DNA of 38,842 nucleotides, taken from NCBI GenBank assembly GCA_945897865.1, contig CAMDHJ010000015.1, positions 1 through 38,842 on the forward strand. Reading direction: 5' to 3'. The notes under the pieces were generated by a model that saw only the letters and a program-made list of their open reading frames with translations, ran no database searches and was not told the DNA's origin. Source of the DNA: Tepidiphilus sp. J10. Lineage in GTDB: Bacteria > Pseudomonadota > Gammaproteobacteria > Burkholderiales > Thiobacillaceae. The position numbers and the translations under genes were made by a program. Each line of letters opens with the position of its first letter. Position 1 is the first letter of the stretch. Positions 1,171-28,947 of the stretch are shown here, one piece after another.

Positions 1171-1293
1171 CAGATCGCGCGAGCTATTGCCTGCCTACGC
1201 CTGCTTGAGCCGTATATCGCCCGAAAGCCGTGTGGTCAGAGACACGAGGTTATTTTTGCCGGGTCTCCCGTAGGAGCGCTTTGGACGGCGCAC

Positions 1294-7713: not shown

Positions 7714-7807
7714 TTATTTTGGAATCTCAACATTGGATTCACCTTGATTCGGCAGCTTGCACTGTAAAAAAGTGAGTCCTGGTTATCGACCGGAAAGGCA
7801 TATTACT

Positions 7808-10174
7808 TTAGATATATCCATGCTTTATTGTCAGCGCCTGCTGCATGGCAACCCAGGCTTGGCCGAGGCTCAAACCCCCATCATTCGGCGGTACCTGCCG
7901 GGGCATCAGCACGTTGAGGCCGCTCCGGCTCAACAAGTGCATCAAGCGGCGTGAAAGCACCTGGTTCAGAAAACAACCGCCGCTCAATGCAATCGTGCGC
8001 AGCCCCTGCCCGGCAGCGGCCTGGCCGACCCAGTCGGCCAGTGCGTACGCCAGGGTGGCATGAAAAATCGCCGCACCGAATGCCGCGTCAGGTTGATCGG
8101 CAATGCCTGCCAGCAAGGGCAGCAGATCGAGTTCGCTGAATGGGTTGCCCGCGTTCAGACGATGTGTGTTCAAACAATATCCATCGCGCATCGGCGCGAC
8201 ATCGCCATAACTTGCCGCCATGCCTTCCAGCAACATCGCCGCCTGGCCTTCGTAGGCCATCACTTCGCGGGCGCCGAGCAGACCGGCTGCAGCATCGAAC
8301 CAACGTCCCAGACTGCTGGTCAGCGGGCAATTCAGCTTGCGCGCCAGAATCTGTTGCAGCTGCGCGGCAGCCGCCTGGTCGGCAAAGCGAGTCGCGATCT
8401 GGTCACCCCGATCCATTTGAAACAGCGCCGCCGCCGCCATCCGCCAGGGCTCTTTTGCGGCCTTGTCTCCGCCCGGCAACCCAATTGGAGCGAGGCAACC
8501 CAGACGGGTAAAACCCGCGCGTTCAAACCGCAGCAACTCGCCACCCCAGGCGTTGCCGTCGCTACCGAGGCCGATGCCGTCCAGCGCCAGACCGAGCATC
8601 GGTTCGCATAGACCATGTTCTGCAGCCACGGCGGCGACATGGGCATGATGGTGTTGCACCGCGATTGCAGGCACCTGCCACTCTGCGGCGAGTTCCATCG
8701 CGTGGCGCGTGCTGAAGAAATCTGGATGCAGATCGTGCGCGATGACGTCCGGCCGGACTTGCAGGATGTCGAGCAGATGCCGGCTGACTTCGATCAGCAT
8801 GCCGATGCTGGCCGGATTGTCGAGACTGCCGATGTGTTGCGAAACAAAAGCTTCATCGCCGCGCGTGACGCAGATCGTGTTCTTCAGATAGCCGCCCAGC
8901 GCCAACACCGAAGGTCCGCTGGCCGGCAAGCGCACTGGCAAACGGATGGCGCGCGGGGTATAGCCGCGCGCGCGGCGGATGAACTGGGGTGCGCCGGTTG
9001 CGCTGATACGCAGCACGCTGTCGTCGCAGCGCACAACGATGTCGCGGTCGTGCATCAGCACCGCATCGGCAATGCCGGCCAAGCGTGCAACCGCTTCGGC
9101 GTTGTCGATCACCAACGGTTCGCCACCAGGATTGGCGCTGGTCATCACCAACAACAGCGCTTGCTCTTGCTGCATCCATGCCGTGCCCACTGGCTGCCCG
9201 GCGGCGGCATGCCACAGCAGCCAGTGCAGCGGCGTGTACGGCAACATGATGCCTAGCCAGGCCAGTCCGGGCGCAAGTTCAGGGAAATCCGTATCGGCAA
9301 TGGCCTGTTTACGCAACAGCACGATCGGCCGCTCGGGTGATTGCAACAGGTCGGCCTCCGCCGCGCTGATCAGCACCCAAGGTGAGATCGATCGGGGATT
9401 GGCGGCCATGATCGCGAACGGCTTTTCATCACGCTGCTTGCGGCCACGCAAACGTTTTACCGCGTCGGCATTGCGTGCGTCACATGCCAGATGAAAACCG
9501 CCCAGGCCTTTGATCGCGACGATGCGGCCGGCGCGCAGCTCGTCCAGCGTGGCGGCGATCGGGTCTGATAGTGCTTCTAACGACGTTGCTTCACCGCGGG
9601 CATCAAGCCGCACCAATGCCAGCTTCGGCCCGCAAACCGGGCAAGCCGTTGGCTCGGCATGGAAGCGTCGATCCGCCGGATTGCGATATTCACGCCCGCA
9701 GGCCGAGCACAGCGGGAACTTCGCCATGCTGGTCTGGGCGCGGTCGTAAGGTAGTTTGTGAGTCAGCGTGTAGCGCGGACCACAATGCGTGCAGTTGATG
9801 AAGGCATATCGCCAGCGCCGGTCGCTTGGATTGAACATCTCCGCCAGGCAATCGGCACAGACCGCCGTGTCGTGGCCGATCATCGTCGCCGCCTGACCAG
9901 CGCCGCTTTCCAGGATGTTGAAATCGGTCAGCATCTGGTCGACCGGAGCATCAAGCCAGGTCAGTTCGCGCACCTGAGCCAGCGGCGGAATTTCTAACGG
10001 CAAACGGCGGCTGAAGGCTGCAAGCTGATCTGGTGTACCAATCGCCAGCACATCAACCCCGGCGGCATCATTGCGCACCCAGCCAGTCAGTTTCAATTCA
10101 TGTGCCAGATGCCAGACATAAGGCCGAAAGCCGACACCCTGAACAATGCCGGTAATGCGGATGCGGCGTTGCAT
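7808..10174 (-). CDS. hypF: Carbamoyltransferase HypF (hydrogenase maturation)
   Basis: HypF turns carbamoyl phosphate and ATP into carbamoyl-AMP and transfers the carbamoyl group to the C-terminal Cys of HypE, the first step to the CN ligands of NiFe-hydrogenase. In order the sequence shows an acylphosphatase domain (VQGVGFRPYVW near residues 8-18), two C-X2-C...C-X2-C zinc fingers (CADC...CTHC, then CSAC...CPVC, about 105-180), a YrdC-like domain (about 205-385) and a Kae1-like C-terminal domain with metal motif HHHAHV. The length of about 788 aa is in family range (E. coli 750). I prefer the ATG at 10174 because family members begin just before this acylphosphatase strand. The frame stays open to ATGs at 10240 and 10324, and none has a clear Shine-Dalgarno. 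No other hyp or hydrogenase gene is in the window, so this copy is an orphan. Confidence 0.93.
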   Translation of the reverse strand: MQRRIRITGIVQGVGFRPYVWHLAHELKLTGWVRNDAAGVDVLAIGTPDQLAAFSRRLPLEIPPLAQVRELTWLDAPVDQMLTDFNILESGAGQAATMIGHDTAVCADCLAEMFNPSDRRWRYAFINCTHCGPRYTLTHKLPYDRAQTSMAKFPLCSACGREYRNPADRRFHAEPTACPVCGPKLALVRLDARGEATSLEALSDPIAATLDELRAGRIVAIKGLGGFHLACDARNADAVKRLRGRKQRDEKPFAIMAANPRSISPWVLISAAEADLLQSPERPIVLLRKQAIADTDFPELAPGLAWLGIMLPYTPLHWLLWHAAAGQPVGTAWMQQEQALLLVMTSANPGGEPLVIDNAEAVARLAGIADAVLMHDRDIVVRCDDSVLRISATGAPQFIRRARGYTPRAIRLPVRLPASGPSVLALGGYLKNTICVTRGDEAFVSQHIGSLDNPASIGMLIEVSRHLLDILQVRPDVIAHDLHPDFFSTRHAMELAAEWQVPAIAVQHHHAHVAAVAAEHGLCEPMLGLALDGIGLGSDGNAWGGELLRFERAGFTRLGCLAPIGLPGGDKAAKEPWRMAAAALFQMDRGDQIATRFADQAAAAQLQQILARKLNCPLTSSLGRWFDAAAGLLGAREVMAYEGQAAMLLEGMAASYGDVAPMRDGYCLNTHRLNAGNPFSELDLLPLLAGIADQPDAAFGAAIFHATLAYALADWVGQAAAGQGLRTIALSGGCFLNQVLSRRLMHLLSRSGLNVLMPRQVPPNDGGLSLGQAWVAMQQALTIKHGYI

Positions 10175-10531
10175 GACTTCGCCGCTGGCCTGACGTACGA
10201 CTTGAATCAATAAACCCCGCGAAGTTTCGATTGCCGACATGCCAGCATTTTCGCCCAGGATGATGGCCTTCACTACCGAATTCAGACTGATCGCATGGCG
10301 ACATTTCAAGTTGGTACTCAACAAAGGACACCATCAAGATGCAAGATCATGCCGATCACCAGGCTGCAAGCTGCAGCAGGTTTCGTCTATTTGCAGTGCG
10401 AATGTATGGCAAGCGAATATTGCCTACACGTCATATCGATTAGAAAGCGATACAGAAATCAGGGTCTTTATTGCTATATAAGCGGTCGCTTGTTGACTCT
10501 ATTTGCCGTGATGGTTAGTTTTGCAGACCTG

Positions 10532-10547
10532 AGGCGTTGCAACGCCT
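10532..10547. promoter_or_regulatory. Perfect 16-bp palindrome upstream of the exported Pro/Ala-rich gene
   Basis: AGGCGTTGCAACGCCT is its own reverse complement, lies 20 bp before the ATG at 10568 and is followed by TCTTTTAT. A TTGACT box at 10493-10498 could be the -35 of a promoter whose product carries this palindrome in its leader. It could be an operator or a leader hairpin that attenuates translation. The sequence alone does not decide. Confidence 0.4.
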
Positions 10548-10567
10548 TCTTTTATAAGGCAACCAGC

Positions 10568-11776
10568 ATGACCCCCTCGCCCTTGTTGTTCAGGATGACC
10601 CTCGTCACCTCCATTTCCGTGCTTACTGCGGGAGTTGCCTGGAGCGCTTATGAAGCGCATGAGAAACAGACAGCGCTGAATAGCAGCAAGGGCAAGGCCG
10701 TTAGAGCGAAAACACCGAAGCCTAAGCAGACTTTTGTTAAAGCGGTCAGTTCGAATTCGGAAACGGGAAATGTCAAGCTGATAAGCTCGCAGCAACTTTC
10801 AACGCCTAAACAGGCGGATTCCCAGGCGGCTGGCAGCAGCGAGCCGGCCCAATATGTCCCGGCAGCAGCCATCGAAGTTTCACAAAATCCGTATTTTGCC
10901 AACCAACCTGCAGCCATTTTGCCGCTGGCCGCGAGACCCGTGGCAACGAATCCAACCCCACGACCGATCGATGTTGCCCCCGTCGCCTCCGCTCCAGCCA
11001 TCACGCCAGCGGTTGTTGCACCGGTAGTCATCGGACCTGCCAGCACGCCGGCCATAGAACCCGTTTCAGCACCCACAATAGCCATCCCGGCACCTTCGGT
11101 TGCTTCGGTTGCTTCGGTTGCAGCAGCGCCGGTGGCACCCGCCCTGCCCAGCCTGGCGCCACCAATCTACAGCGCTGCCTCACCGGTCGCCACGAACAGC
11201 TACAGTGCTCCAGTTGCCGCTTATCAAACTTGGAACTCTGCCTCCACCGGCATTAATAGTCCGTCAGCTAACCCTTATCTGAACCCCTACCTGAATAATA
11301 ACCGGGCATATCAACCGCAACCGCCAGCAGCGGCCCCTGTGCAGCCGTTCATCCCCTCATTCAGTAATCCCTTTGGCGGCGGCGCGTTTAAATTCTCCCT
11401 GCCTTCTTTGCCTTCGTTCCCCTCACTGCCACAGGCAGGCAATCCAGAACCGGCCGCTTACAAAGCGCCTCAATTCAGCGCTCAACAAATTCAGACGCCA
11501 AAAAAAGCAGCCAGTACCGGTTCAGGCAGTTCGATTTTATCGAGCTTGAAAATGATGATTCCTCTGACTGGCGATTCCAATATTTTGCCGACTATCAAGA
11601 AGGTTTATCCGACGGGCGAAAAACCACTGGTGGTGTTGAATTTCAAATGTCCGACCGAAGTCATCGGCATTACGCCGCCACCCATGAAGTTATTGCATGA
11701 AGCCGTTAATTTTGGTTTTGACGGCCTCAACAAGACCAATCTGCTGTCTTTCAATCTGCAGCAAGTCTGCTCCTGA
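10568..11776 (+). CDS. Exported Pro/Ala-rich low-complexity protein of unknown function
   Basis: I do not recognise a family. The ATG at 10568 is preceded by AAGG at a good distance and opens a signal-anchor-like stretch (short N-region, then hydrophobic residues up to VAWSAYEAHE), so the product is probably exported or anchored. The frame is open further upstream, but that part has no signal-like start. Lys-rich residues (about 30-60) are followed by a long Ala/Pro/Val-rich disordered region (about 95-200) with SVA repeats, then Asn/Tyr/Pro-rich sequence. A compact hydrophobic C-terminus of about 80 residues contains VLNFKCPTEVIG and ends in Cys-Ser. The two Cys of the last 80 residues (FKCPTE and the penultimate QVCS) could form a disulphide. 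The long linker plus a small end domain suggests an envelope-spanning or surface protein (inference). A strong terminator follows at 11806. Confidence 0.7.
   Translation: MTPSPLLFRMTLVTSISVLTAGVAWSAYEAHEKQTALNSSKGKAVRAKTPKPKQTFVKAVSSNSETGNVKLISSQQLSTPKQADSQAAGSSEPAQYVPAAAIEVSQNPYFANQPAAILPLAARPVATNPTPRPIDVAPVASAPAITPAVVAPVVIGPASTPAIEPVSAPTIAIPAPSVASVASVAAAPVAPALPSLAPPIYSAASPVATNSYSAPVAAYQTWNSASTGINSPSANPYLNPYLNNNRAYQPQPPAAAPVQPFIPSFSNPFGGGAFKFSLPSLPSFPSLPQAGNPEPAAYKAPQFSAQQIQTPKKAASTGSGSSILSSLKMMIPLTGDSNILPTIKKVYPTGEKPLVVLNFKCPTEVIGITPPPMKLLHEAVNFGFDGLNKTNLLSFNLQQVCS
11095..11121 (+). repeat. Triple 9-bp tandem repeat TTCGGTTGC inside coding sequence
   Basis: Three exact in-frame copies of TTCGGTTGC encode Ser-Val-Ala three times in the disordered region of the exported protein. 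The unit is a multiple of three, so slippage would change linker length without a frameshift. Confidence 0.9.
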
Positions 11777-11805
11777 TCTTTCCACGGCTTTATTTCTGAT
11801 CAAGT

Positions 11806-11848
11806 TTGCGCCCTCGGCATCATTCGATGCCGAGGGCGCAATTCTTTT
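11806..11848 (+). terminator. Rho-independent terminator after the exported Pro/Ala-rich gene
   Basis: A perfect 16-bp stem (TTGCGCCCTCGGCATC with its exact complement), loop ATTC, followed by TTCTTTT. It lies 30 bp after the stop codon at 11776, in the correct orientation for the plus-strand gene, and separates it from convergent purT. Confidence 0.88.
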
Positions 11849-11892
11849 GTGCGGCGCTTTGGCGAATCCTTTGCTGAATCAATAAATCTCGG

Positions 11893-13098
11893 CTAGATCG
11901 CTACGGGCTTCACCAGCGCAGCGGCGGCTTTGGCTCTCTGCCGCGCCTGATCGGTATCAATACCCTCCGCCAACGCGACCCCCATGCGTCGGTTCGTGAA
12001 AGACACCGGCTTGCCGAACAGGCGCAGGTCGGTTCCGGGTATCTGCAACGCCGCATCCACCCCTTCAAAACGGATGCCGGGGGCATCAACGCCACCATAG
12101 ATCACCGCCGAAGCGCCGGGCGAACGCAACGTGACATCGACCGGCAAGCCGAGAATGGCCCGCGCGTGCAGTTCAAATTCATTCTGCTTCTGACTGGTCA
12201 TCGTCACCATGCCGGTGTCATGCGGGCGCGGACTGACTTCCGAGAACCAGACTTCATCACCCTTGACGAAGCACTCGACGCCAAACAGACCCACGCCGCC
12301 CAGATTGTCAGTGACCGCTTTGGCGATTTCCTGCGCGCGTTCCAGGGCAGCCTGGCTCATTGCCTGTGGCTGCCAGCTTTCGACGTAATCGCCATTGACC
12401 TGGACATGGCCAATCGGCGCACAAAAATGGGTTTGCACCTCAGCGGCGGCATTGCGCGCGCGCACCGTCAACAATGTGATCTCGTAATCAAAATCCACCA
12501 CGGCTTCAACGATCACGCGGCCCTTTTTGACACGTCCGCCGGCGTTTGCGTAATCCCATGCGGTGCCCAGATCATCCAGACTGTTGACACGGCTTTGGCC
12601 CTTGCCGGAGGACGACATCACCGGCTTGATGATGCAGGGAAAACCGATGCCATTCTGGCCTTCCACCGCCGCACGCAAACTTTGCAAAGAATCTGCAAAG
12701 GCATAGCGTGATGTCGGCAGTTTGAGTTCTTCGGCTGCCAGTCGACGAATGCCTTCGCGATTCATGGTCAGATTTGCCGCACGGGCACTCGGTATCACCC
12801 GGCAAATCCCGGCCTTTTCCAATTCCACCAGGGTTTCAGTCGCAATCGCCTCGATTTCCGGCACCACAATCGCCGGCTGCTCCGAATCGATCAATCGGGA
12901 CAGCACATTGCCATCGGTCATATCGATGGTCTGCGCCCGATGTGCGACCTGATGACCGGGCGCATCGTCATAGCGGTCGACCGCAATCACCTCAACCCCA
13001 AGGCGTTGCAATGCAATGATGACTTCCTTGCCAAGTTCGCCAGCCCCCAACAGCATGACCCGGGTAGCAGAAGGCGATAACGGCGTTCCAATGAACAT
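11893..13098 (-). CDS. purT: Formate-dependent phosphoribosylglycinamide formyltransferase PurT
   Basis: PurT (GAR transformylase 2) makes formyl-GAR from GAR, formate and ATP, the folate-independent version of purine synthesis step three. The 401-residue protein is full length. Its start ([20 protein letters not shown]) is the classic PurT N-terminus with the Gly-rich nucleotide loop. The ATP-grasp core follows, with [14 protein letters not shown] as the phosphate-binding loop and [14 protein letters not shown] as the metal-binding Glu region. AAGGA lies 8 nt before the ATG. It is monocistronic and divergent from the LysM-FecR gene, with about 50 bp between starts. PurL, the next purine enzyme, is encoded 2 kb away on the same strand but is not in the same operon. 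Confidence 0.96.
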
Positions 13099-13152
13099 GA
13101 GAGGTATCCTTACGACATATCATTGCCCAAAGCTTAACGTAAGAGACTTCAC

Positions 13153-15084
13153 ATGCGCACTGCACAACTGATTCCCGCCCTGGCCGCACTGACCATTTTT
13201 TCTGCCCAGGCGGCAGACTGGCTTTATTTGACGGTTCCGGGCGACACCTTGAGCGGCATCGGCCAGATGTATCTGAAGAATCCTAAAGACTGGCCCAAGA
13301 TTCAGGCAACGAATGGCGTCCGCATCCCCAAACACCTGCCGGCCAACAGCCGTTTCAAAATCCCGGTTGACCTACTGAAAGTCACACCGGCCGCCGTCAA
13401 CGTCGTCGCGGTAAAAGGCAACGCCCGTTTCAAGCTCGCTGATGGCCCCTTCCAGAAGCTGGTCAGCGGTGCAACGTTGACTGGCGGTGAAACCGTATTG
13501 ACCGGTCCAGGCGCCAGCGTCAGCTACCAATTCGCCGACAACACCCGGCTTACCCAACAGGCTTCAAGCAAGCTCAGCTTTGGACGTCTGGCCAGTTATG
13601 GCAAAACCGGCATGGTTTCCACCGAGATTTCGCTCGATAGCGGGCGACTGGAAGCCAGTGCAGCAAAACAGCTTTCCCCGGCAGGCGGTTTCAAGGTGCG
13701 CACGCCCATCGCAGTCGCTGGTCTGCGCGGCACGGGGTTTCGGCTGAATATCTCGGAGGATGGCAAAACGCTACGCAATGAGGTCACCGAGGGCGCGGTT
13801 GCGGTGTCAGCGCAAGGCCAGGAAGTTCAGGTTGACGCGGGTTTCGGCACCTTTGCCGAACTTGGCAAACCTCCGGTGCCACCGACCAGTCTGTTGGCCA
13901 AACCGGATTTGTCCGCCCTGCCTGACAAGATCAATCGGCTCCCGGTGAGCCTGGCCTGGCCGGAGAATCCCGCCGCCCAAGCCTGGCGTATTCAACTCTC
14001 CGACGAGGCCAGTTTCCAGACCCTGCTGCGCGATGAAATCGTGACTCGGGCTTCAGTCGAGTGGACATCCGAATTGCCGGATGGTGATTATTTCCTGCGT
14101 GTTCGCGGGGTTGACCCACTCGGCCTCGAAGGCTTTAACGCCGACCATGCTTTCAGCCTCAACGCGCGTCCATTGCCGCCGATGCCGCAGAAACCGGCAT
14201 TGGGCGAACGCATCGGGCAGCACGAGATCGAACTCGCCTGGCATGCTGCGGAAGGCGCTCAGGGTTATCTGCTGCAATTGGCGCCGACGCCGGAATTTTC
14301 CCATGGCGTCATCGAACGCCGATTGATGGTGAAATCGCCGACGATTGCAGCTGCGGGCGCAGCGACGACGCTCGAATCAACCCGCGAAACTCTGAACAGC
14401 GGGGAATGGCATTGGCGCATTGCCAGCCTGGATAAGCAGGGCCAAACACGGGCATTCAGCCCACACCGCGCTTTCAGGGTGCAACCTACGCCTGCGATCC
14501 CCCTGTTGCTGACGGAAACTGATAAGCCCCTGGTGACAACCCAGCCTGAGGTAAAACTGCAATGGCAAGCTTCTTCGGAAGCAGTGGCCTATCAGGTTCA
14601 AATTGCGGCTGACCCTGAATTTGCCAAGAAGGAGGTCGATCAACGCACGGCTGAAACCCATCTCACCACGACTTCGAAAGCACCCGGCGACTGGCACTGG
14701 CGGGTCGCTGCATTGGGGCTGGATGATGATTCGCAAGGTTTCTCGAAAGCCGCAAGCTGGCGTTATCAGCCGCTGCCAACTCAACCGGAGATGCCGCGCT
14801 ACAGCGTGGATCTCGATTCCGTGTCCGTCGTCTGGTCCGGCTCAGCCCCGGCCTACCGGCTTGAACTCAGTCGCAATCAAGCTTTTACCGAAGTGATCGC
14901 CCGTCCTGTCGTGCGGGTTCCTGAAGCACGCCTGATCAAACCCGCAGCCGGCACATACTGGTTACGTGTGATTGCGTTGAATGCCGACAATCAGGAAAGC
15001 CCACCTAGCGCTTCGGTTCAGATTGAAGTGCAAACTACGTTCAGGCCATGGTGGCTGCTACCCTTTCTAATCTTTGCACCTTGA
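13153..15084 (+). CDS. Exported LysM and FecR domain protein with fibronectin-like repeats
   Basis: A cleavable signal peptide (residues 1-20, ending FSAQA-A) is followed by a LysM domain (about 24-75; LTVPGDTLSGIGQMYLKN) that should bind peptidoglycan. A FecR-type sensing domain (about 85-225; VRTPIAVAGLRGTGFRL) comes next, then three or four Ig/FnIII-like repeats (about 245-630) with recurring W-H-W-R-I/V or F-L-R-V-R strands. The protein ends in a hydrophobic tail, FRPWWLLPFLIFAP. Betaproteobacteria often carry such a protein beside a CHASE2-type cyclase or kinase, probably as the periplasmic partner; none is present here. The stop codon lies in an 11-bp tandem repeat and the tail looks like the start of a membrane segment, so the C-terminus may be secondarily shortened (inference). 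A direct role in iron uptake is unlikely because no sigma factor or TonB receptor is nearby. Confidence 0.85.
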   Translation: MRTAQLIPALAALTIFSAQAADWLYLTVPGDTLSGIGQMYLKNPKDWPKIQATNGVRIPKHLPANSRFKIPVDLLKVTPAAVNVVAVKGNARFKLADGPFQKLVSGATLTGGETVLTGPGASVSYQFADNTRLTQQASSKLSFGRLASYGKTGMVSTEISLDSGRLEASAAKQLSPAGGFKVRTPIAVAGLRGTGFRLNISEDGKTLRNEVTEGAVAVSAQGQEVQVDAGFGTFAELGKPPVPPTSLLAKPDLSALPDKINRLPVSLAWPENPAAQAWRIQLSDEASFQTLLRDEIVTRASVEWTSELPDGDYFLRVRGVDPLGLEGFNADHAFSLNARPLPPMPQKPALGERIGQHEIELAWHAAEGAQGYLLQLAPTPEFSHGVIERRLMVKSPTIAAAGAATTLESTRETLNSGEWHWRIASLDKQGQTRAFSPHRAFRVQPTPAIPLLLTETDKPLVTTQPEVKLQWQASSEAVAYQVQIAADPEFAKKEVDQRTAETHLTTTSKAPGDWHWRVAALGLDDDSQGFSKAASWRYQPLPTQPEMPRYSVDLDSVSVVWSGSAPAYRLELSRNQAFTEVIARPVVRVPEARLIKPAAGTYWLRVIALNADNQESPPSASVQIEVQTTFRPWWLLPFLIFAP

Positions 15085-20662: not shown

Positions 20663-22009
20663 ATGGAGGAACCTGTACGCTCTGCAACTCGTAACAACGC
20701 CATTTCGGGAGATAACCCAGTCGTGACCTTGCCCACCCTCCGCCCACGCGACCGCGACGCGCTCATTCAAGCCCTGCGCTCCGGCGTTACCCCGCGCACT
20801 GGCGCAAGACATATCCAGGTTGGCCGCGATGCCGAAATAGCCGCCCTCGACAAAGACCTCGAACGCATCTGCGACGGCGGCGCAAGTTTCCGGCTGATCG
20901 TCGGCGAGTACGGTTCCGGCAAGACCTTTTTTCTCAACCTTCTACGCGGCGAAGCCATGGAGCGGCAACTCATCGTCGCCCATGCTGACCTCAATCCCGG
21001 CCGCCGCCTGCACGCCTCCAGCGGCGAAGCGCGCAGCCTGTATGCCGAGTTGATGAAAAATCTTTCCAGCCGCGCCAAACCGGAAGGCGGCGCACTCATC
21101 ACAGTAGTAGAAAAATTCATCACCTCCGCGTTGGCCGAAGCGAGGAAAGCTGACCGCAAACCCGAGGATGTCATTCACGACAAGCTCGAAGCCCTGAGCG
21201 AACTGGTCATGGGCTACGACTTCGCCACCGTCATCGCCGCCTACTGGCGAGCCTACGAAAAAGACGACGACACCCTCAAGGCCAACGCCATCCGCTGGCT
21301 GCGCGGCGAATTCAGCGCCAAGACCGACGCCCGCGCCGCCCTCGGCGTGCGCGAAATCATCAATGACGCCGCCCTCTACGACCAACTCAAACTGCTCGCC
21401 CGCTTCACCCGACTGGCCGGCTACAAAGGCCTGCTGATCTGCCTGGACGAACTGGTCAACCTCTACAAACTCGCCAACCCGCAAGCCCGCAACAGCAACT
21501 ACGAACAAATCCTGCGCATCCTCAACGACCTCGAACAAGGCAACGTCGAAGGCTTGGGCTTCGTCCTCGGCGGCACCCCGGAATTCCTTACCGACCCGCG
21601 CCGGGGTCTGTACAGCTACCCCGCCCTGCAATCGCGCCTAGCGGAAAACCCCTTCGCCCGCGACGGCCTGATCGACCTCACCGGCCCGGTCATCCGCCTC
21701 GACAACCTCAGCCGCGACCAATTCGGCCAACTGCTCGGCAAACTCAGCCAGGTCTACCAGGGCGCGGGCGCTCCGTTATTGCCGGAAGCCGGCATCCCCG
21801 CCTTCATCGCCCACAGCGAACAACGCCTGGGCGAAGCCACCTTCCGTACACCGCGTACCACCATCAAGGCATTCGTCGGATTGCTGGCGGTGCTGGAACA
21901 GAATGAAGCGGCGGATTGGCGGGCACTGCTGGAGCGGACGGAGGTAGAAGCGGAACAGACGGTTGGTGATGGAGATGTTAGCGATGAATTGGCATCATTG
22001 ATGCTTTGA
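20663..22009 (+). CDS. BrxD-like P-loop ATPase (DUF2791 family)
   Basis: A 448-residue ATP-binding protein of the DUF2791 family, which includes BrxD of some BREX systems and the ATPase of Ter-linked DNA-processing clusters. The family start IQALRSGVTPRTGARHIQVGR is followed by Walker A GEYGSGKT (about residues 82-89), Walker B GLLICLDEL (about 255-263), a sensor-like VLGGTPEFL and a C-terminal RTPRTTIKAFVGLL helix with an Arg finger-like RTPR. It probably remodels or loads a partner, perhaps the helicase at 26.8 kb, onto DNA (inference). The start is uncertain: the ATG at 20663 has no ribosome site, whereas the in-frame GTG at 20723 has GGGAGA 10 bp upstream and sits just before the conserved region. 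Its GC-rich codon use differs from the AT-rich genes that follow. A 244-bp AT-rich gap without a gene separates it from the next gene. Confidence 0.82.
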   Translation: MEEPVRSATRNNAISGDNPVVTLPTLRPRDRDALIQALRSGVTPRTGARHIQVGRDAEIAALDKDLERICDGGASFRLIVGEYGSGKTFFLNLLRGEAMERQLIVAHADLNPGRRLHASSGEARSLYAELMKNLSSRAKPEGGALITVVEKFITSALAEARKADRKPEDVIHDKLEALSELVMGYDFATVIAAYWRAYEKDDDTLKANAIRWLRGEFSAKTDARAALGVREIINDAALYDQLKLLARFTRLAGYKGLLICLDELVNLYKLANPQARNSNYEQILRILNDLEQGNVEGLGFVLGGTPEFLTDPRRGLYSYPALQSRLAENPFARDGLIDLTGPVIRLDNLSRDQFGQLLGKLSQVYQGAGAPLLPEAGIPAFIAHSEQRLGEATFRTPRTTIKAFVGLLAVLEQNEAADWRALLERTEVEAEQTVGDGDVSDELASLML

Positions 22010-22253
22010 ATTGTCCAAGCAAATTAGATGAAATACCTTGTGCCAGTAAGAATGTACAAACAGGATCTGTATACGAGGAAACCTCATGAATAACAAATTA
22101 AATAGATATATTTAAATACCACGGATGGCAGCCAAACTAACTAAGCCAGATCAATTCAGTAAAATCGCTGAAGACAACGCCAATTAAATATTAACAACCC
22201 CATCACACCAGTACAGACGCTGACGTTACGGTCCAGAGAAGAGAATTAGAACG

Positions 22254-23912
22254 ATGAGATGTTACTCACCCGAACCCCATAGTAAGTACTGCATCACCAC
22301 TGGCGACTTCACCTACCGTCTGGTGGACGAGGGGCGGCCGGCAGCCTGGAATCTGGTCTGGCTTTCGGTGCCCCAAGTTGACGATCTGCTCGACCCGAAC
22401 CTGGACCGGAACAAGTTTTATGACACCCTGCCCTCAGCCGCAATCGGTGGACTGTCGGCGGCGAGCTGTGCTATCAGCGAATCACTGACCTTCACCGTTG
22501 AGTCCATCATGGGCCAGTCTGCCGTTGCCTTCGTCACCGACTATCTGGAGATGTTTGACTTTCAGTCAACATCAGGCTGGAAGCTCCTGGGCGGTCAAGC
22601 CTGGCTCGACACGATGATGCGCCGAGCCTACCTTTCTGACGGGATGTCTGAGGCGTATGCCGCAGCCAAATCATCTGACAAAATACTCTTGGTGGATTTT
22701 TCTTTGAGGAGGAAATCTAATACACGTATCGAATCACAAGAAATTGAAGAACAAATTCACATCGAAGAACAACAACCAATATCTGGATTGATTATATTAA
22801 ACGGGGGCAAAAACCAAAGTAGTGATCATTCTTTAGTAACAGGCAACGCAAAATTCAGTAATGCAAGGTCAATTAAAGATCAATTCGTCGAAAGCACTAC
22901 CAATCAAGCTATCGAAGCCATAGAGGACAAAAAGATAGTTATTGCGGACCTCCCAAATGGGTATGTAGATAATCGAAATGGAACAATTACCGACCCCCGG
23001 AGTGGTCTTACCTGGATGCGCTGCCTTCTGGGGCAGCGTTTTGAGGCTCTTGGATGCAATAAATGTACAGGGACCGCAAACACTTATACTTGGGAAAATG
23101 CCAAGCTGATCCGGCATCAGTATGCCGGGCATGATGACTGGAGGCTGCCAACGATTGATGAGTTGGAGTCGATTTTCGGAAAGCACTCTGATAGGAATCA
23201 AAATAAAGCAATTTTTCCATGGTTAGCGAATGAAGATGATATTTTTTCTACAACCTGCGTTTGGTCGTCTAGCACAGCAACGGCGATGGATATCTTCACC
23301 GTATATGCATATCATCCAAACGATGACAGCATCGCAGATTGCTTTGACAACTACCTGGATGATCATCACCAGATTTTATTAATGCGCAGCATTGCAGGTG
23401 GTTCTAATGCGGTTATGGGTGCAAACATTGAACAGCAAAATATTACACAAGGGCTTTCCTCACCAGATGAAATAATTGGCAGCGCTATAGATGACGCCAG
23501 CATTAGCGCCACGGTGGTGGTATTACTCAACATGGTCGAACGATTCGAAGCACGCTTCGAAGCAATGGAGAGCCGAATAGAATTACTTACAAATTTACTG
23601 GCATTTCCGCAATCAAAATTTGCGGTAGATGCCCCACCTCATACTAAGGCCGGAAGAATCGATGTTGGAATTCCAGTCGATGCTACATACCTGGAATTCT
23701 TGTACTGGCTGGTTGAACAGCAGAGCATCGCTTACTCAGATTTGCGTACCCGACTGCTCCCACTTGACCTTCTTCCTGGCGCTGTTATCAACGATATTAA
23801 TGAACGTGCCCTAGATCTAACTGGCGAACCGGCGTTGGAAGAAGATGGCGACACCATGATCGTGCGGCAAGAAGTGCTGTTGCAAGTCATCGATACCTGG
23901 GATGTACCTTGA
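22254..23912 (+). CDS. DUF1566 (Lcl C-terminal) protein with probable TerB-C domain
   Basis: A 552-residue mosaic. Residues 1-145 match nothing I know. Residues about 232-378 form a DUF1566/Lcl_C domain: NRNGTITDPRSGLTWMRC, TYTWENAKL, GHDDWRLPTIDELESIF and VWSSSTAT are its diagnostic blocks, usually found in surface or C-type-lectin-like proteins. A coiled segment (about 420-445, MVERFEARFEAMESRIELL) leads to residues about 475-550, which resemble TerB-C: hydrophobic helices, LLPGAVINDINERAL, then the acidic EPALEEDGD. TerB-C normally ends TerB-N/TerB proteins encoded beside DUF2791 ATPases and Lhr-like helicases, which fits this neighbourhood. There is no signal peptide. The first 430 bp are GC-rich; from about 22690 the gene turns markedly AT-rich, suggesting fusion of parts with different histories. 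AGAAGAG precedes the start. The DUF1566 call is firm, TerB-C moderate, function unknown. Confidence 0.75.
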   Translation: MRCYSPEPHSKYCITTGDFTYRLVDEGRPAAWNLVWLSVPQVDDLLDPNLDRNKFYDTLPSAAIGGLSAASCAISESLTFTVESIMGQSAVAFVTDYLEMFDFQSTSGWKLLGGQAWLDTMMRRAYLSDGMSEAYAAAKSSDKILLVDFSLRRKSNTRIESQEIEEQIHIEEQQPISGLIILNGGKNQSSDHSLVTGNAKFSNARSIKDQFVESTTNQAIEAIEDKKIVIADLPNGYVDNRNGTITDPRSGLTWMRCLLGQRFEALGCNKCTGTANTYTWENAKLIRHQYAGHDDWRLPTIDELESIFGKHSDRNQNKAIFPWLANEDDIFSTTCVWSSSTATAMDIFTVYAYHPNDDSIADCFDNYLDDHHQILLMRSIAGGSNAVMGANIEQQNITQGLSSPDEIIGSAIDDASISATVVVLLNMVERFEARFEAMESRIELLTNLLAFPQSKFAVDAPPHTKAGRIDVGIPVDATYLEFLYWLVEQQSIAYSDLRTRLLPLDLLPGAVINDINERALDLTGEPALEEDGDTMIVRQEVLLQVIDTWDVP

Positions 23913-23952
23913 GTAATCGCCAGTTACACCCGTTTTCAACTTGGACATCAGA

Positions 23953-24705
23953 ATGACCAGACAGTCACAAAAAGATGAAGAGCGAGTGTTTCTGGTCAAA
24001 GCATTAGGGAAGATTGGCCTTAAATACGAAATTGCTAGCGGCGTGCGCGAAAGGCCCGACTTTGTAATTACTTGCGAAAACAAGACTATTGGGGTGGAAA
24101 TAACATCTCTACCTAGAACCCTATCGCCGGGCGAAAACGCAAAAAAACTCGAAGCGTCAATTAGCCACATCAAAAATAAATCAATAGAAATTTACTCAAA
24201 CCTAGGTGGACCACCAATAATCGCTCAAATCGTGCTTGACGGAACGAAGCCGATTATCAACAAAAAGTCTTTTACAGAGATACTGGCAAACCACTTGTTT
24301 TTAGCTTGTACTACTAACCATCAACGCGACCTGCCTTCTGATGTTGGCTGTATTTCTTTCCAAAATAAAAATCTGAGCCCGATTACAGAAATAATTATCA
24401 CCCCATCCCCAACAAATGAGTCTGGCATGTTTGTGATAAGCAAGTTCAACTCAACCGAGGTCTGTGCAGCAGACGTCAATGATGTCGTCGCCAACAAATC
24501 GCTTGACACAAGTGAATACCCAAGCTTTCTTTCGGAGAAGTGGCTAATAATTGTATTGCCACTTATGGCAATGGCCGGCGATTCGGTATTGCCAAATAAT
24601 ATCTGCACTCCTGAGAAGCATGGCTTTAATAGAATTTATCTTTTTGATTCCTACAGAGACAAACTGGCCGTAGTAGGTACAGGGAACATTAAGGAAAGGG
24701 CTTAA
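23953..24705 (+). CDS. Uncharacterised protein with PD...ExT nuclease-like motif
   Basis: A 250-residue protein I cannot assign to a named family. Near the N-terminus (about residues 15-55) it has E-R-V-F followed by YEIASGVRERPDFVI and TIGVEIT. This resembles the core of PD-(D/E)xK nucleases (helix with Glu, then PD, then E-x-K), with Thr in place of the final Lys. Similar PDF...GVEIT proteins occur in defence and restriction neighbourhoods (general knowledge). The remainder is mixed alpha/beta with no clear motif. I take the ATG at 23953 rather than the TTG at 23941; neither has a good ribosome site. The gene is distinctly AT-rich, lies 40 bp after the TerB-C gene and ends 2 bp before the DUF433 gene, suggesting a transcription unit acquired from a lower-GC source. 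Confidence 0.6.
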   Translation: MTRQSQKDEERVFLVKALGKIGLKYEIASGVRERPDFVITCENKTIGVEITSLPRTLSPGENAKKLEASISHIKNKSIEIYSNLGGPPIIAQIVLDGTKPIINKKSFTEILANHLFLACTTNHQRDLPSDVGCISFQNKNLSPITEIIITPSPTNESGMFVISKFNSTEVCAADVNDVVANKSLDTSEYPSFLSEKWLIIVLPLMAMAGDSVLPNNICTPEKHGFNRIYLFDSYRDKLAVVGTGNIKERA

Positions 24706-24707
24706 AA

Positions 24708-24938
24708 ATGAATCGTTTTGATCGCATCACCATCAACCCCGCTCTAGTGAATGGGCAACCATGCATTCGAGGCATGCGCCTCACCGTCAAACGCGTGGTC
24801 GAGGCTGTGGCCTTGTATCCGAACCGAGAGGATCTGTTTCTGGAGTACCCCGAACTCGACGCGGAGGATGTTCGCCAGGCACTGGATTTCGCGGCGTGCA
24901 ACCTGGATGACAGCGTGATCCAGCTCGAAGCGGCATGA
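24708..24938 (+). CDS. DUF433 family antitoxin
   Basis: A 76-residue DUF433 protein, a small winged-helix-like antitoxin family related to VapB45. The signature is clear: RITINPALVNGQPCIRGMRLTV at the start, then a helix-turn-helix-like part with YPELDAEDVRQALDFAA. It should bind the partner toxin and repress its own promoter. The start follows the previous stop by 2 bp, with GGAAAGG just upstream inside that gene's end as ribosome site. Its stop overlaps the toxin start by 4 bp (ATGA), the usual coupling in toxin-antitoxin pairs. GC-rich codon use returns here after the AT-rich preceding genes. Confidence 0.9.
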   Translation: MNRFDRITINPALVNGQPCIRGMRLTVKRVVEAVALYPNREDLFLEYPELDAEDVRQALDFAACNLDDSVIQLEAA

Positions 24939-25306
24939 CCAAGGTCTTGCTGGATCAAGGCTTGCCGCGCACGTCGGCGGGCCTGTTGCGGGAGATTGGT
25001 TGGGACGTGCAACACGTCAGCGAACGCGGCATGTCCCAAGCGGAGGATGTCGCCATCATTGAGCTGGCACGCCAGGAACAACGCGTCGTCGTTACATTGG
25101 ACGCCGATTTCCATGCCTTACTTGCGGTTTCCGAGGCAAGCGGACCTTCCGTCGTGCGAATTCGCTCGGAAGGGCTAAAAGCTGCACAGATCGCGACGCT
25201 GCTTCAACGCATTTTTGCTGTCGCAGGTAACGAAATGGCCAAGGGCGCAATGGTCACCGTCCTCGACGAGAAGATACGTATCAAGCACTTGCCCATCGTC
25301 AAGTGA
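24935..25306 (+). CDS. DUF5615 PIN-like toxin
   Basis: A 123-residue DUF5615 protein with a PIN-like nuclease fold. The acidic residues expected for metal binding are in place: LLDQGLP at the N-terminus (first Asp), DVAIIELARQ (central Glu/Asp) and VVTLDADF (third Asp). It is the toxin partner of the upstream DUF433 protein, and the ATGA overlap supports coupled translation. The predicted target is RNA, by analogy with VapC; this has been shown for few members. It lies between the nuclease-like gene and the Fic-helicase pair, so it may stabilise the island or be an unrelated addiction module. Confidence 0.88.
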   Translation: MTKVLLDQGLPRTSAGLLREIGWDVQHVSERGMSQAEDVAIIELARQEQRVVVTLDADFHALLAVSEASGPSVVRIRSEGLKAAQIATLLQRIFAVAGNEMAKGAMVTVLDEKIRIKHLPIVK

Positions 25307-25320
25307 TTAACGCCCTCCAA

Positions 25321-25369
25321 AGTGGCGCAATAAGCCTTATGCGCCACTAAACCATGCCATAGTGGCGCA
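25321..25369. promoter_or_regulatory. Triple AGTGGCGCA repeat upstream of the Fic-helicase operon
   Basis: AGTGGCGCA occurs at 25321-25329, inverted (TGCGCCACT) at 25340-25348 and direct again at 25361-25369. The first two arms and their spacer (TAAG-C-CTTA inside) form a nearly complete hairpin. No T-run follows, so a terminator is less likely than a protein-binding site. The array lies 25 bp before the ATG of the winged-helix Fic-like gene, fitting autoregulation by that protein's N-terminal domain or by the DUF433 protein (inference). Confidence 0.6.
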
Positions 25370-25393
25370 TACCACATTGCACCCGATCAGAAC

Positions 25394-26779
25394 ATGTCCC
25401 GCTCCATTCACGAATCCGAGCTCCAAGACATACTTGCTGCGATCACACGCTCCCCGGATGGGCTTGGCATCGAGGAAATTGAATCGGCAATGCATACGCC
25501 GCCGCCGCGTCGTACATTGCAACGCAGGCTGGCCTTGCTGGTGGCCGAGAAACGGCTGCGGATGGCGGGACAACGGCGCGGGGCGCGGTATTTTTCCGGT
25601 AGCGCGGATGTGGCGGCGTTATTACCAACCATCGCACCTCATACGCCAGATGATTTTGGCATTCCGTTTTCCGCCGAGGTGCTGGAGGTTGCCAAGGCGG
25701 TCACACGGTCGTTATCCGCGCGCCAACCCGTCGGCTACAACCGGGCGTTTCTGGATGGTTATCGGCCCAATGTCAGCCGCTATTTGTCCGAGTCGGTGTG
25801 TGCCGAATTGCACGACGCGGGGCAAGCGGCGATAGGCGAGATGCCGGCCGGAACCTACGCGCGGCAGATTCTCGGCCGCTTGCTGATCGATCTGTCGTGG
25901 AACTCCAGCCGCCTGGAAGGCAATACCTATTCCCTGCTGGAAACGGAACGCTTGTTGTCCGTGGGGCAGGTGGCAAGCGGCAAGGATGCGCTGGAAGCGC
26001 AGATGATTCTGAACCACAAGCGGGCGATTGAATTTCTGGTGGAACCCGCCGCCGAGATCGGTTGCAACCGTTTCACCGTGCTCAACCTGCACGCGCTGCT
26101 GGCGGACAACTTGCTGGCCGATCCCACGGCCGGCGGTCGTTTGCGGAGCATTGGGGTCGGCGTCGGCGGTACAGTGTTTCACCCTCTGGAGGGGCCGCAA
26201 CGAATCGCGAAGTGTTTTCAACAGGTGCTTGATTCAGCGGAGGCAATCATCGAGCCTTTCGAGCAGGCTTTCTTTCTGATGGTGCACCTGCCGTATCTAC
26301 AGCCGTTCGAGGACGTGAACAAACGGGTGTCGCGACTGGCGGCAAATATCCCGCTGATTCGGCATAACCTCTGCCCGCTGTCTTTTGTCGATGTCGATCA
26401 GCAAACCTACATCCATGCCGTGTTGGGCGTCTATGAACAGAACCGGGTCGAGTTGCTACGCGATGTCTTCGTCTGGGCCTACAAGCGTTCCAGCGCGCGT
26501 TATTCAGCGGTGCGCCAATCGCTGGGCGAACCAGACCCGTTCCGGCTTCGCTATCGCGAGTTGCTGGTCGAAACCGTGGCGCAAGTGGTGCGCGCCGGCA
26601 TGAGCCGTGACCAGGCCATTACGTTCATCCAGGCGCAAGCGGACACAGTGGACAAGCAGGATCGGCCCCGCTTTGTCGAGGTGGCGGAAACCGAGGTGAT
26701 GAGCCTGCACGAGGGCAACATTGCCCGCTATCGCTTGCGTCCGAGCGAGTACACCGCCTGGCGAGCGCAATGGATATAA
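25394..26779 (+). CDS. Winged-helix Fic-like protein with degenerate active site
   Basis: A 461-residue protein with an N-terminal winged-helix domain (about 1-75; TLQRRLALLVAEKRLRMAGQRRGARYF) and a Fic fold. Fic enzymes normally AMPylate target proteins through HPFx(D/E)GNGRxxR. Here the matching segment (about residues 301-314) is LQPFEDVNKRVSR: the catalytic His is Gln and the first Gly of the anion loop is Val, while the Phe, Asn and Arg positions are kept. The class II inhibitory motif S-x-x-x-E-G is intact (SSRLEGN, about 169-176). It may be inactive as an AMP transferase, use another chemistry, or serve as a sensor/regulator. Similar QPFEDxNKR variants exist in the Fic superfamily (recollection). 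Its 3' end overlaps the helicase ATG by 10 bp, implying coupled translation. GC-rich codon use matches the ATPase and helicase genes, not the AT-rich middle of the island. Confidence 0.82.
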   Translation: MSRSIHESELQDILAAITRSPDGLGIEEIESAMHTPPPRRTLQRRLALLVAEKRLRMAGQRRGARYFSGSADVAALLPTIAPHTPDDFGIPFSAEVLEVAKAVTRSLSARQPVGYNRAFLDGYRPNVSRYLSESVCAELHDAGQAAIGEMPAGTYARQILGRLLIDLSWNSSRLEGNTYSLLETERLLSVGQVASGKDALEAQMILNHKRAIEFLVEPAAEIGCNRFTVLNLHALLADNLLADPTAGGRLRSIGVGVGGTVFHPLEGPQRIAKCFQQVLDSAEAIIEPFEQAFFLMVHLPYLQPFEDVNKRVSRLAANIPLIRHNLCPLSFVDVDQQTYIHAVLGVYEQNRVELLRDVFVWAYKRSSARYSAVRQSLGEPDPFRLRYRELLVETVAQVVRAGMSRDQAITFIQAQADTVDKQDRPRFVEVAETEVMSLHEGNIARYRLRPSEYTAWRAQWI

Positions 26780-28947
26780 GCGGCGCGGCCTTCGACCGCC
26801 TCGCGCCACCGCTGCAACGCTGGTTGTGGGAACAAGGCTGGACCGGTTTGCGCGAGGCGCAGGCGGCGGCGCTGCCGTTGCTGCTGGATGACGAACGCGA
26901 TGTAGTGATCGCCGCCGCAACAGCCTCCGGCAAGACCGAGGCGGCGTTTCTGCCACTACTCACGCGCTTGTGGCAAGGCGGGGGCCAAGGAATGGTGTTG
27001 TATGTCGCGCCGATGAAGGCGTTGATCAACGACCAGTTCGAGCGGCTTGGCCTGATTTGCGAACGCCTGGAGTTGCCGGTAACGCCCTGGCATGGCGATG
27101 TCGGTGAGTCGCCGCGCAAGCGTTTCTTCGCCGACCCGCGCGGCGTGGTGTTGATTACGCCGGAATCCTTGGAGTCTCTGTTATTCCGCCGGGGCGCGGA
27201 ACTGGGCCGTATCTTTGCTAGCCTGGAAGCCGTGGTGGTGGATGAGTTGCACGCTTTCATCGGTAGCGAACGCGGGCGGCAATTGCAGTCGTTGTTGCAT
27301 CGATTGGATGCCGCTATCGGTCGGAGAGTCCGGCGGGTGGGTTTGTCGGCGACGCTGGGCGATATGCGGCTGGCGGCGGAGTTTCTGCGACCTGGCGCGG
27401 GTGCGGCGGTGGCGGTCATCGTCAGTTCGGCGGAGAAGAAGCGGCTGGATCTGGCTTTCAAAGCGGTGCGGGTGCCGCCCGGCACGGAAATAACCGTGAT
27501 TGCAGCGCATCAGACCATCGCCGTCGAGTTGTTCGCGCGGCTGCGCGATGCCAATTATTTGATTTTTCCCAATACCACTGGCCTGGTCGAGCAATACGCC
27601 GACGGCTTGCGCTTGCTGAGTGAAGCGGCCCGCGTGCCGGTGAGCTTCTTTCCACATCACGGGCGCTTGGGCAAGTCGGAACGGGAGACTACGGAAAGCG
27701 AATTGAAACGCGGCGACCGACCGATCAGCGCGATCTGTACCACGACGCTGGAAATGGGCATCGACATCGGTGCGATTCGTGGTGTGGTGCAGATCGGCGC
27801 ACCGGATACAGTGTCCAGCTTGTGTCAGCGCATCGGCCGCGCCGGGCGCCGCGCGGGAGAAGCCGCGCGTTTATGGCAATACTGCGTGACCGAGGAACCC
27901 CACGCCAATATGGGTTGCGCCGCAGGTCTGCATGCCGATTTCATCCAGGCGCTGGCAATCATTCGCCTGTATCTGGCCAAGTGGTATGAGCCACCACGAT
28001 CCGGCGCGCTGCACACCTCGACGCTGGTGCAACAAATCCTGGCGTTGATCGGCGAGCGGCACGGTATCAGCGCCGCCGATGCCTATCGCACGCTGTGCTT
28101 GAGCGGCCCGTTCAGCAATATCAGCGAGTCGGATTTCATCGAACTGTTGCGCGCGCTGGCCGCGCAAGGGTTGATCATGCAGGACGCCACGCGCCTGCTG
28201 TTGCATGGTCCGCTGGGGGAGAAACGGGTCAACCACTTCACGTTCTTCGCGGCTTTCCCGGATACCCAGGAATACCGATTGCTGCACACCGGCAAGGAAC
28301 TTGGCACGCTGCCGCTGAAGATCAGCCATCAGGTCGGCAGCGTGCTTATCTTCGCCGGCCGTCGATGGCGCATGGCGGAAATCGACCACGACAAACGACG
28401 CGTTGAGCTGATTCCGGCGACGGTGGGTGATCGACCCCGTACACGCGGCGAAGGCAGCCCGGTGCATGACCGGGTGCGCGCGGAGATGCGCGCCGTTCTG
28501 GCAGGCGAGGATGAACCGGAATGGTTGGATGACAAGGCGCGTGAAGTCTTGCGCTCCGCGCGCCGGCATTTCCGCGACCTTGGTTTGGGGGCATGCACGC
28601 AGATCGCGGATGGCAATAGCGTCAATCTATTTCTCTGGCGCGGCGATGCGGTTCAGGATGGGCTGGTCGCCATGCTGAGAAGTCGAGGCCTGGCGGCGGA
28701 AAACCACGGAATCTGCGTGGAAATCGGACGCACCAACGTGCAAAGGCTCACCGCCGGGCTCCAGGAAATCGCAGCAGCGCCATGTCCTGCACCGGATCAG
28801 GTGTTGAATCGCCAGGCTATCGGCAACCCGGAGAAATGGGATTGGGTTCTTCCTGATCGTCTGTTCCACGCCAGTTTCGCAAGCAGTCGGCTGGATTTGG
28901 CGGGGGCGCATACGTGGTGTTCAAAGGGGGTGAAGAACGCCAAGTAG
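26770..28947 (+). CDS. Lhr/BrxHI-like superfamily II DEAD/DEAH helicase
   Basis: A 725-residue DNA/RNA helicase. Visible motifs: a Q-motif-like FDRLAPPLQRWL...REAQ at the start, motif I ATASGKTEA (about residues 49-58), Ia APMKALINDQ, Ib TPESLESLL, motif II VVDELHAF (DELH, about 156-160), motif III LSATLGD (about 190), motif V TTLEMGIDIG and motif VI QRIGRAGRRAGE (about 352-363). The C-terminus (KWDWVLPDRLFHASFASSRLDL) is typical of the Lhr-related helicases called BrxHI in BREX and found beside DUF2791 ATPases. The start at 26770 overlaps the Fic-like gene, so the two are made together. It probably unwinds foreign or stalled DNA with the ATPase at 20.7 kb as loader (inference). It ends the island: the following 347 bp hold no gene and DinG begins a separate unit. 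Confidence 0.9.
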   Translation: MDISGAAFDRLAPPLQRWLWEQGWTGLREAQAAALPLLLDDERDVVIAAATASGKTEAAFLPLLTRLWQGGGQGMVLYVAPMKALINDQFERLGLICERLELPVTPWHGDVGESPRKRFFADPRGVVLITPESLESLLFRRGAELGRIFASLEAVVVDELHAFIGSERGRQLQSLLHRLDAAIGRRVRRVGLSATLGDMRLAAEFLRPGAGAAVAVIVSSAEKKRLDLAFKAVRVPPGTEITVIAAHQTIAVELFARLRDANYLIFPNTTGLVEQYADGLRLLSEAARVPVSFFPHHGRLGKSERETTESELKRGDRPISAICTTTLEMGIDIGAIRGVVQIGAPDTVSSLCQRIGRAGRRAGEAARLWQYCVTEEPHANMGCAAGLHADFIQALAIIRLYLAKWYEPPRSGALHTSTLVQQILALIGERHGISAADAYRTLCLSGPFSNISESDFIELLRALAAQGLIMQDATRLLLHGPLGEKRVNHFTFFAAFPDTQEYRLLHTGKELGTLPLKISHQVGSVLIFAGRRWRMAEIDHDKRRVELIPATVGDRPRTRGEGSPVHDRVRAEMRAVLAGEDEPEWLDDKAREVLRSARRHFRDLGLGACTQIADGNSVNLFLWRGDAVQDGLVAMLRSRGLAAENHGICVEIGRTNVQRLTAGLQEIAAAPCPAPDQVLNRQAIGNPEKWDWVLPDRLFHASFASSRLDLAGAHTWCSKGVKNAK

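Follow-up and report, generated by a model that had tools for sequence, protein, structure and literature searches.

Shango is described in passages of PMC10250203 as a three-gene anti-phage system consisting of a TerB protein, an ATPase and a helicase, which are encoded by neighbouring genes in P. aeruginosa PA14; the plating effect given there is modest (10-100-fold) and concerns many, not all, of the tested phages. The Shango helicase SngC is grouped with BrxHI, DruE and DpdJ in a part of PMC12278908, and for the BREX helicase BrxHI, a passage of PMC12839542 puts forward BrxD as a possible loader or activator. Here we analyse a Shango-related locus of Tepidiphilus sp. J10, which occupies positions 20663-28947 of contig CAMDHJ010000015.1 (38,842 nucleotides, referred to in its entirety as the window).

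The ATPase and the helicase that bound this locus are SngB and SngC of Shango, and a protein that we call A' stands in the place of the third Shango protein, SngA. The Shango variant is real and rare, the evidence that its third subunit has been replaced is good, and it is not a categorically new system. We consider it reasonably probable that the locus is a Shango-derived phage-defence locus, in which SngB and SngC are the chassis and A', with an interchangeable front, has taken SngA's place. The genes and the two conserved segments discussed below, the latter defined with the related locus of genome G857, are as follows.

20663..22009, + strand: sngB, AAA+ ATPase of 448 amino acids (aa), BrxC/BrxD Pfam family
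21793..22009, + strand: 3' end of sngB, conserved segment that anchors the variable interval on the left, from DNA similarity between the window and G857
22254..23912, + strand: A', 552 aa, in SngA's place; N-terminal part without an assigned domain, DUF1566/Lcl_C at residues 243-344, TerB-C tail at 457-545
23688..23892, + strand: TerB-C tail, conserved right anchor within A', 205 bp common to the window and G857
23953..24705, + strand: predicted nuclease of 250 aa, PD-(D/E)xK-like motif by eye
24708..24938, + strand: DUF433, antitoxin-like (Pfam E-value, E, 2.7e-18)
24935..25306, + strand: DUF5615, PIN-like partner of DUF433 (Pfam E 6e-23; PIN_10 E 7.1e-6)
25394..26779, + strand: Fic-like protein of 461 aa, motif QPFEDVNKR (Pfam Fic E 5.7e-10)
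26770..28947, + strand: sngC, SF2 helicase of 725 aa (PADLOC SngC E 5.5e-238)

A rare Shango subtype

Based on PADLOC profiles, SngB of the window matches the SngB model over residues 25-444 of 448 (E 6e-163, against 3.4e-45 for BrxD), and SngC matches its model over residues 7-718 of 725, with the E-value given above against 2.9e-122 for BrxHI. Walker A (GEYGSGKT) and Walker B are present in SngB, as are motifs I, II (DELH), III and VI in SngC. A first-pass annotation had named the two proteins a BrxD-like ATPase and an Lhr/BrxHI-like helicase, in agreement with their Pfam matches (BrxC/BrxD ATPase, E 9.6e-145; DEAD and Helicase_C). It had also outlined six or seven genes in one direction, with the ATPase and helicase 5 kb apart in a rearranged order; all seven open reading frames (ORFs) are present on the + strand, and the distance and the order are as described. 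Its view of a defence-type locus in which the ATPase, the TerB-C protein and the helicase form one set is likewise supported. Its further claim of a candidate new island has to be given up, since the Shango models fit both proteins and the island is therefore not of an unknown type; a new unrelated island was rejected on the same ground.

Genome contigs were scanned with an SngC alignment, and the best 80 loci were kept, more being in existence. Together with L011-L016, L133, L134 and L137, and with the window and L017, a BREX locus, set aside, this gave 89 classified loci. The genes for SngA, SngB and SngC followed each other as A-B-C with gaps under 300 bp in 78 of them (in a few, the end of the contig truncates a gene), while L025 showed this order with a 1 kb gap and L054 the order C-A-B (649-6523). 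Three loci had B-C without a detected A (L037 and L079, which lie at contig starts, and L080, which does not), and three had C only (L039, L049 and L073, the last cut by a contig end). In the final three, from Accumulibacter (L018), Limnohabitans (L019) and genome G621 (L137), B and C are separated by a gap and a canonical A is absent. Canonical SngA, as in L014, combines TerB_N, TerB and TerB_C in Pfam. Individual loci had features of their own: on a Cupriavidus plasmid, L025 carries a 298-aa gene without a PADLOC match between SngA and SngB (7720-8616), L042 has a tandem pair of 803-aa SngA genes preceding sngB (3628-8635), and the SngC of L031 (Silanimonas, 9989-14164) lies in a 1391-aa ORF, possibly fused to an extra C-terminal part.

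In a tree of SngC (91 rows), the window, L018, L019, L073 and L137 fall on one side of a branch with a likelihood-ratio (SH-aLRT) support of 100 and a stem of 0.79. The window, L018, L019, L137 and G857 are also grouped in a tree of SngB (88 rows; SH-aLRT 99), both being quick trees with no bootstraps. Identity to the SngB of the window is 70-89% within this clade, for complete or long matches, and 59-65% in the other Shango loci compared. The clade includes the window, L018, L019, L073 (Sulfuricella) and G857, all with A', and takes in G621, which has sngB and sngC without A'. Its recurrent core consists of sngB, sngC and a protein with a TerB-C tail, and the window locus belongs to this rare Shango subtype with the order sngB-A'-sngC. 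Among 399 genomes of the order there were five SngB matches, of which only those of the window's own genome and G494 are clade members. In 398 genomes of another family there were 24, at 59-64% identity and thus under the 70-89% of the clade; the only one whose gene order was read, G484 (L133), is A-B-C. As to a spread on phages or plasmids, the SngC alignment detected eight viral loci at 26-42% identity, and SngC matched 655 plasmid records, all below 60% identity. No match to the A' tail was found in plasmids, and none to the A' alignment in viral contigs.

The front and the tail of A'

The PADLOC profile of SngA matches A' only at positions 440-520 of 528, and of the three Pfam domains of SngA the window protein contains TerB_C alone, with no match to TerB_N or TerB. 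The fusion of TerB-C to DUF1566 noted in the first pass is borne out, as Lcl_C (E 2.2e-16) and TerB_C (E 1.9e-7) are found in a single 552-aa protein. The TerB-C tail is also the sole part that A' of L018, L019 and L073 has in common with SngA. In front of it, the window and Sulfuricella proteins have Lcl_C, the Accumulibacter protein has two Lcl_C and Flg_new_2, the first copy in Limnohabitans has Flg_new_2, and the G857 protein (L145, 2811-4664) has IF2_N between DUF1566/Lcl_C and TerB_C. A second copy in Limnohabitans is made up of a Sel1 ORF followed by a TerB_C ORF that is out of frame with it. The front domains placed on the conserved tail thus vary among DUF1566, InlB-type repeats, IF2_N and perhaps Sel1.

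The G+C content (GC) of the window A' is 0.35-0.58 per 150 bp, below most of sngB and sngC. An AlphaFold model from a five-row alignment has block-mean confidence (pLDDT) values of 89-96 over residues 481-550 and below 50 over residues 1-470. A Foldseek search with this model gave no significant match (best E 0.48), and its best-ranked matches included many transcription regulators, none significant, whose DNA-binding domains we take to be winged helices. Since no match was significant, a winged helix in the A' tail is only suggested by the model.

The fronts are dissimilar beside conserved neighbours. In a blastn comparison of the window with G857 (E 1e-4), sngB is alike up to its stop codon at base 22009 (86.7%), and similarity returns in the 205 bp of the TerB-C tail (77.6%), in DUF433 (88.9%) and at the start of sngC (81.4%); the remaining interval, including the rest of A', has no DNA similarity at this threshold. 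At the protein level, the two are 89% identical in sngB and 85% in the first 150 residues of SngC, against 30% in the A' front. Synonymous divergence (dS) is 2.7 (saturated) in the front, 1.0 in the tail and 0.49 in sngB. In the Limnohabitans locus the conserved segments themselves are doubled: the 3' end of sngB occurs at 6471-6686 and 8142-8357 (216 bp, 88.4%), and the TerB-C tail is found twice in tandem (223 bp, 88.8%). The sngB repeat begins where the first A' gene ends, at its stop codon, and the repeats of sngB end and tail flank a second front part with a GC of 0.37, its own tail having 0.58. This arrangement fits the insertion of a second allele, which may have occurred by recombination at both anchors. 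Judged from these alignments, the front half of A' seems to have been swapped between strains while the tail has stayed constant, and we read this as a putative sensor cassette that can be exchanged within a Shango chassis.

A further, nuclease-like gene follows A' in three of the five A' loci (the window, L019 and G857) and is different in each. In the window it is an ORF at 23941-24705, for which ATG 23953 is the likelier start, with a PD-x(12)-ExT motif (PDF...GVEIT) and a GC of about 0.39-0.50. While the ORF predicted in the first pass stands, the label nuclease-like rests on this motif seen by eye, since no Pfam, PADLOC or NCBIfam family matched the protein. Homologues were found neither in viral contigs nor in plasmids nor in 349 other genomes of the class, and a single-sequence AlphaFold model was unusable (pLDDT 37). 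The L019 gene encodes 179 aa with a KPDF...MEVK motif, likewise noted by eye, and no Pfam family; its GC is 0.32, and it matches three plasmid records, one annotated as formyltransferase-like, one as hypothetical and one without annotation. The G857 gene belongs to HEPN_AbiU2, with an E of 6.7e-9 that passes the Pfam cut-off.

Proposed mechanism and alternative explanations

In the mechanism that we propose, SngB and SngC would form a conserved chassis on which A' docks through its TerB-C tail, and the front half (in the window, the N-terminal domain and DUF1566) would be an interchangeable sensor or specificity module. These roles are pointed to by the clade, which separates a constant from a variable part of the third subunit. 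Recombination between the 3' end of sngB and the TerB-C tail could allow strains to swap or stack fronts, sometimes together with a nuclease-like gene behind A'. During infection, A' may sense a phage-derived cue, upon which SngB would load or activate SngC on the target nucleic acid; we infer this step from the BrxD-BrxHI proposal, SngC being grouped with BrxHI. The presumed outcome is a block of phage replication. We put forward more tentatively, and with its chances short of even, the wider idea that Shango can serve as a chassis in which fronts are swapped or stacked between the sngB end and the tail, in many cases followed by a PD-(D/E)xK or HEPN nuclease, so that one ATPase-helicase pair would respond to different cues in different strains.

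Several observations weigh against this proposal. The A' proteins of the window and G857 share their domain order except for IF2_N, and their protein sequences are related, so what looks like replacement in this pair could be the result of fast divergence. The second Limnohabitans cassette may be dead because its tail ORF and the Sel1 ORF before it are in different reading frames. Loci with A' are few, at five; in two of them, L018 and L073, sngC follows A' with no gene intervening; and we know of no interaction or phage assays for the sngB-A'-sngC subtype. In addition, of the five genomes of the genus with sngB (23 searched), three (G494, G611 and G632) have a broken copy, which indicates that the locus often decays in the genus, the G621 assembly has no TerB_C match, and the sngC match of G857 ends after residue 150.

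The last three points count against a working locus. An unlikely but serious alternative is a decaying Shango operon, in which SngA has been lost, the interval has gathered unrelated genes (for the DUF1566-TerB-C protein, the nuclease-like protein, the DUF433/DUF5615 pair and Fic) and the locus no longer works. Besides the broken sngB genes, it is favoured by the lack of SngC matches in the same three genomes (threshold E 1e-15, the one trace being a 36-residue remnant in G611), by the low GC of the inserted part, and by G621, where 8.3 kb separate sngB from sngC and TerB_C has no match in the assembly. The G621 interval (7776-14094) encodes a DUF1778-like/GNAT pair, named by eye, a D12 methyltransferase, a HerA-like ATPase and a 464-aa protein without an assigned family. 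However, the ORFs of the window are open and the motifs of SngB and SngC are kept. The ratio of nonsynonymous to synonymous substitution rates (dN/dS) for sngB is 0.16 against G621 and 0.12 against G857, and for sngC it is 0.13 against G621; although these values average over shared history, both genes are by this measure under purifying selection. Moreover, the Accumulibacter locus has a compact sngB-A'-sngC arrangement, so the order itself is not a product of decay.

That the nuclease-like protein, the toxin-antitoxin (TA) pair and Fic are true subunits or effectors of one enlarged system appears improbable to us. The six- or seven-gene single system of the first pass is weakened by the census, with SngA-B-C contiguous in 78/89 loci and no Fic match in any of the 87 loci L011-L097. 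All genes do lie on one strand, and the coupling of the helicase to Fic is real in the sense that their ORFs overlap by 10 nt (26770-26779). The predicted TA pair is likewise present, its two ORFs overlapping by 4 nt, and DUF433 presumably has an antitoxin-like role. Between sngB and sngC, DUF433 occurs only in the window, G621 and G857. The G621 copy is in the same place (90.4% DNA identity, dN/dS 0.06), and the G857 copy is perhaps frameshifted, since its protein identity is only 65% despite 88.9% DNA identity. DUF5615, in contrast, has no match in any of seven clade or genus loci, G621 among them, or in G857, and is found in the clade in the window only; the G857 interval has a PIN gene (E 1.1e-7), whose G621 counterpart aligns as DNA and reaches a PIN E of only 0.17. 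In L015, from an unrelated genome of the class, a canonical Shango is followed after about 0.5 kb by a DUF433/DUF5615 pair (9033-9569, with a weak DUF5615 match), and DUF433 also matches weakly near the canonical Shango of L075, so a looser link of the TA-like pair with Shango is possible. Within the A'-sngC interval, the pair is an insertion, and L018 and L073, with nothing between A' and sngC, also speak against the enlarged system.

The Fic match of the first pass holds, while the winged helix-turn-helix assigned to the same protein has no Pfam match. Homologues occur at 13 further places in the taxonomic family, with matches in 11 of 100 family genomes and in 32 plasmid records, and six of seven other Fic neighbourhoods, some on short contigs, are without a sng gene. 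The exception is G611 (L127, 9163-12177), where Fic again stands 5' of the sngC 3' remnant, followed by the broken sngB; this Fic is 79% identical to that of the window, with a dN/dS of 0.16. The position of the sngC end upstream of sngB in G611 is as at a tandem or circular junction. A genus-level Fic-sngC link is possible given this single recurrence. Fic as a general Shango subunit was rejected, as neither the 87 loci nor the seven neighbourhoods showed the adjacency outside the genus, and the gene is most likely a passenger in the A'-sngC interval. In Fic proteins, the histidine of the Fic motif is the residue for AMP transfer. It is replaced by glutamine in 13 of 13 aligned sequences from the 14 places, the window included, and the solved relative FICD aligns across this stretch; ordinary AMPylation is therefore unlikely.

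Reduction from a BREX type 2 system, lastly, is hardly credible: the second-best profile matches of SngB and SngC are BrxD and BrxHI, but the Shango models score far higher, the NCBIfam BrxD equivalog gives SngB 151.9 bits against a cut-off of 350, the BREX helicase L017 is a very long separate branch in the SngC tree, and core BREX genes, noted as missing in the first pass, were not found, the only PglZ match in the window's own assembly (86% complete) reaching 18.9 bits where the cut-off is 25.

Some observations concern the wider surroundings. Promoter-like and terminator-like sites at the locus were not above those of shuffled sequence. Positions 1-169 of the window are 83% identical to 14008-14175 of L138 (G494), about 1.3 kb from the broken sngB there, and perhaps represent a mobile repeat common to both. 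Positions 1294-7713 encode a hybrid histidine kinase of 2139 aa, in which many PAS domains are combined with GAF, receiver and Hpt.

Relation to known defence systems

The literature surveyed, mainly at the level of titles and the beginnings of abstracts, names no mechanism for Shango. A Shango variant of the kind considered here appears neither in titles and abstract beginnings nor in passages of PMC10250203, PMC12839542, PMC10952713 and PMC12278908. No paper joining TerB with DUF1566 was among the matches listed, and a search in the wording of exchangeable effectors found none. Should our proposal of a Shango chassis with an exchangeable A' front be true, Shango would join the defence systems that diversify through the exchange of one module. 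The docking role of the tail and the sensor role of the front become testable, and detectors that require a full SngA may miss such loci.

With BrxD-BrxHI of BREX type 2, the window locus shares a related AAA+ ATPase and SF2 helicase, but these score better on Shango models, and no PglZ exceeds its cut-off. With Shango it shares SngB and SngC that fit the profiles with intact motifs, and a TerB-C domain that ends both SngA and A'. It differs from Shango in the order sngB-A'-sngC instead of A-B-C, in the extra genes of the interval, and in an A' that has other front domains and is without TerB_N, TerB and, by eye, the hydrophobic N-terminal stretch of SngA. In Lamassu-type systems, a conserved chassis is combined with exchangeable effectors. 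The window locus resembles them in joining a constant chassis to a variable partner, but the chassis proteins are unrelated, and its variable part is joined to a TerB-C tail in one protein.

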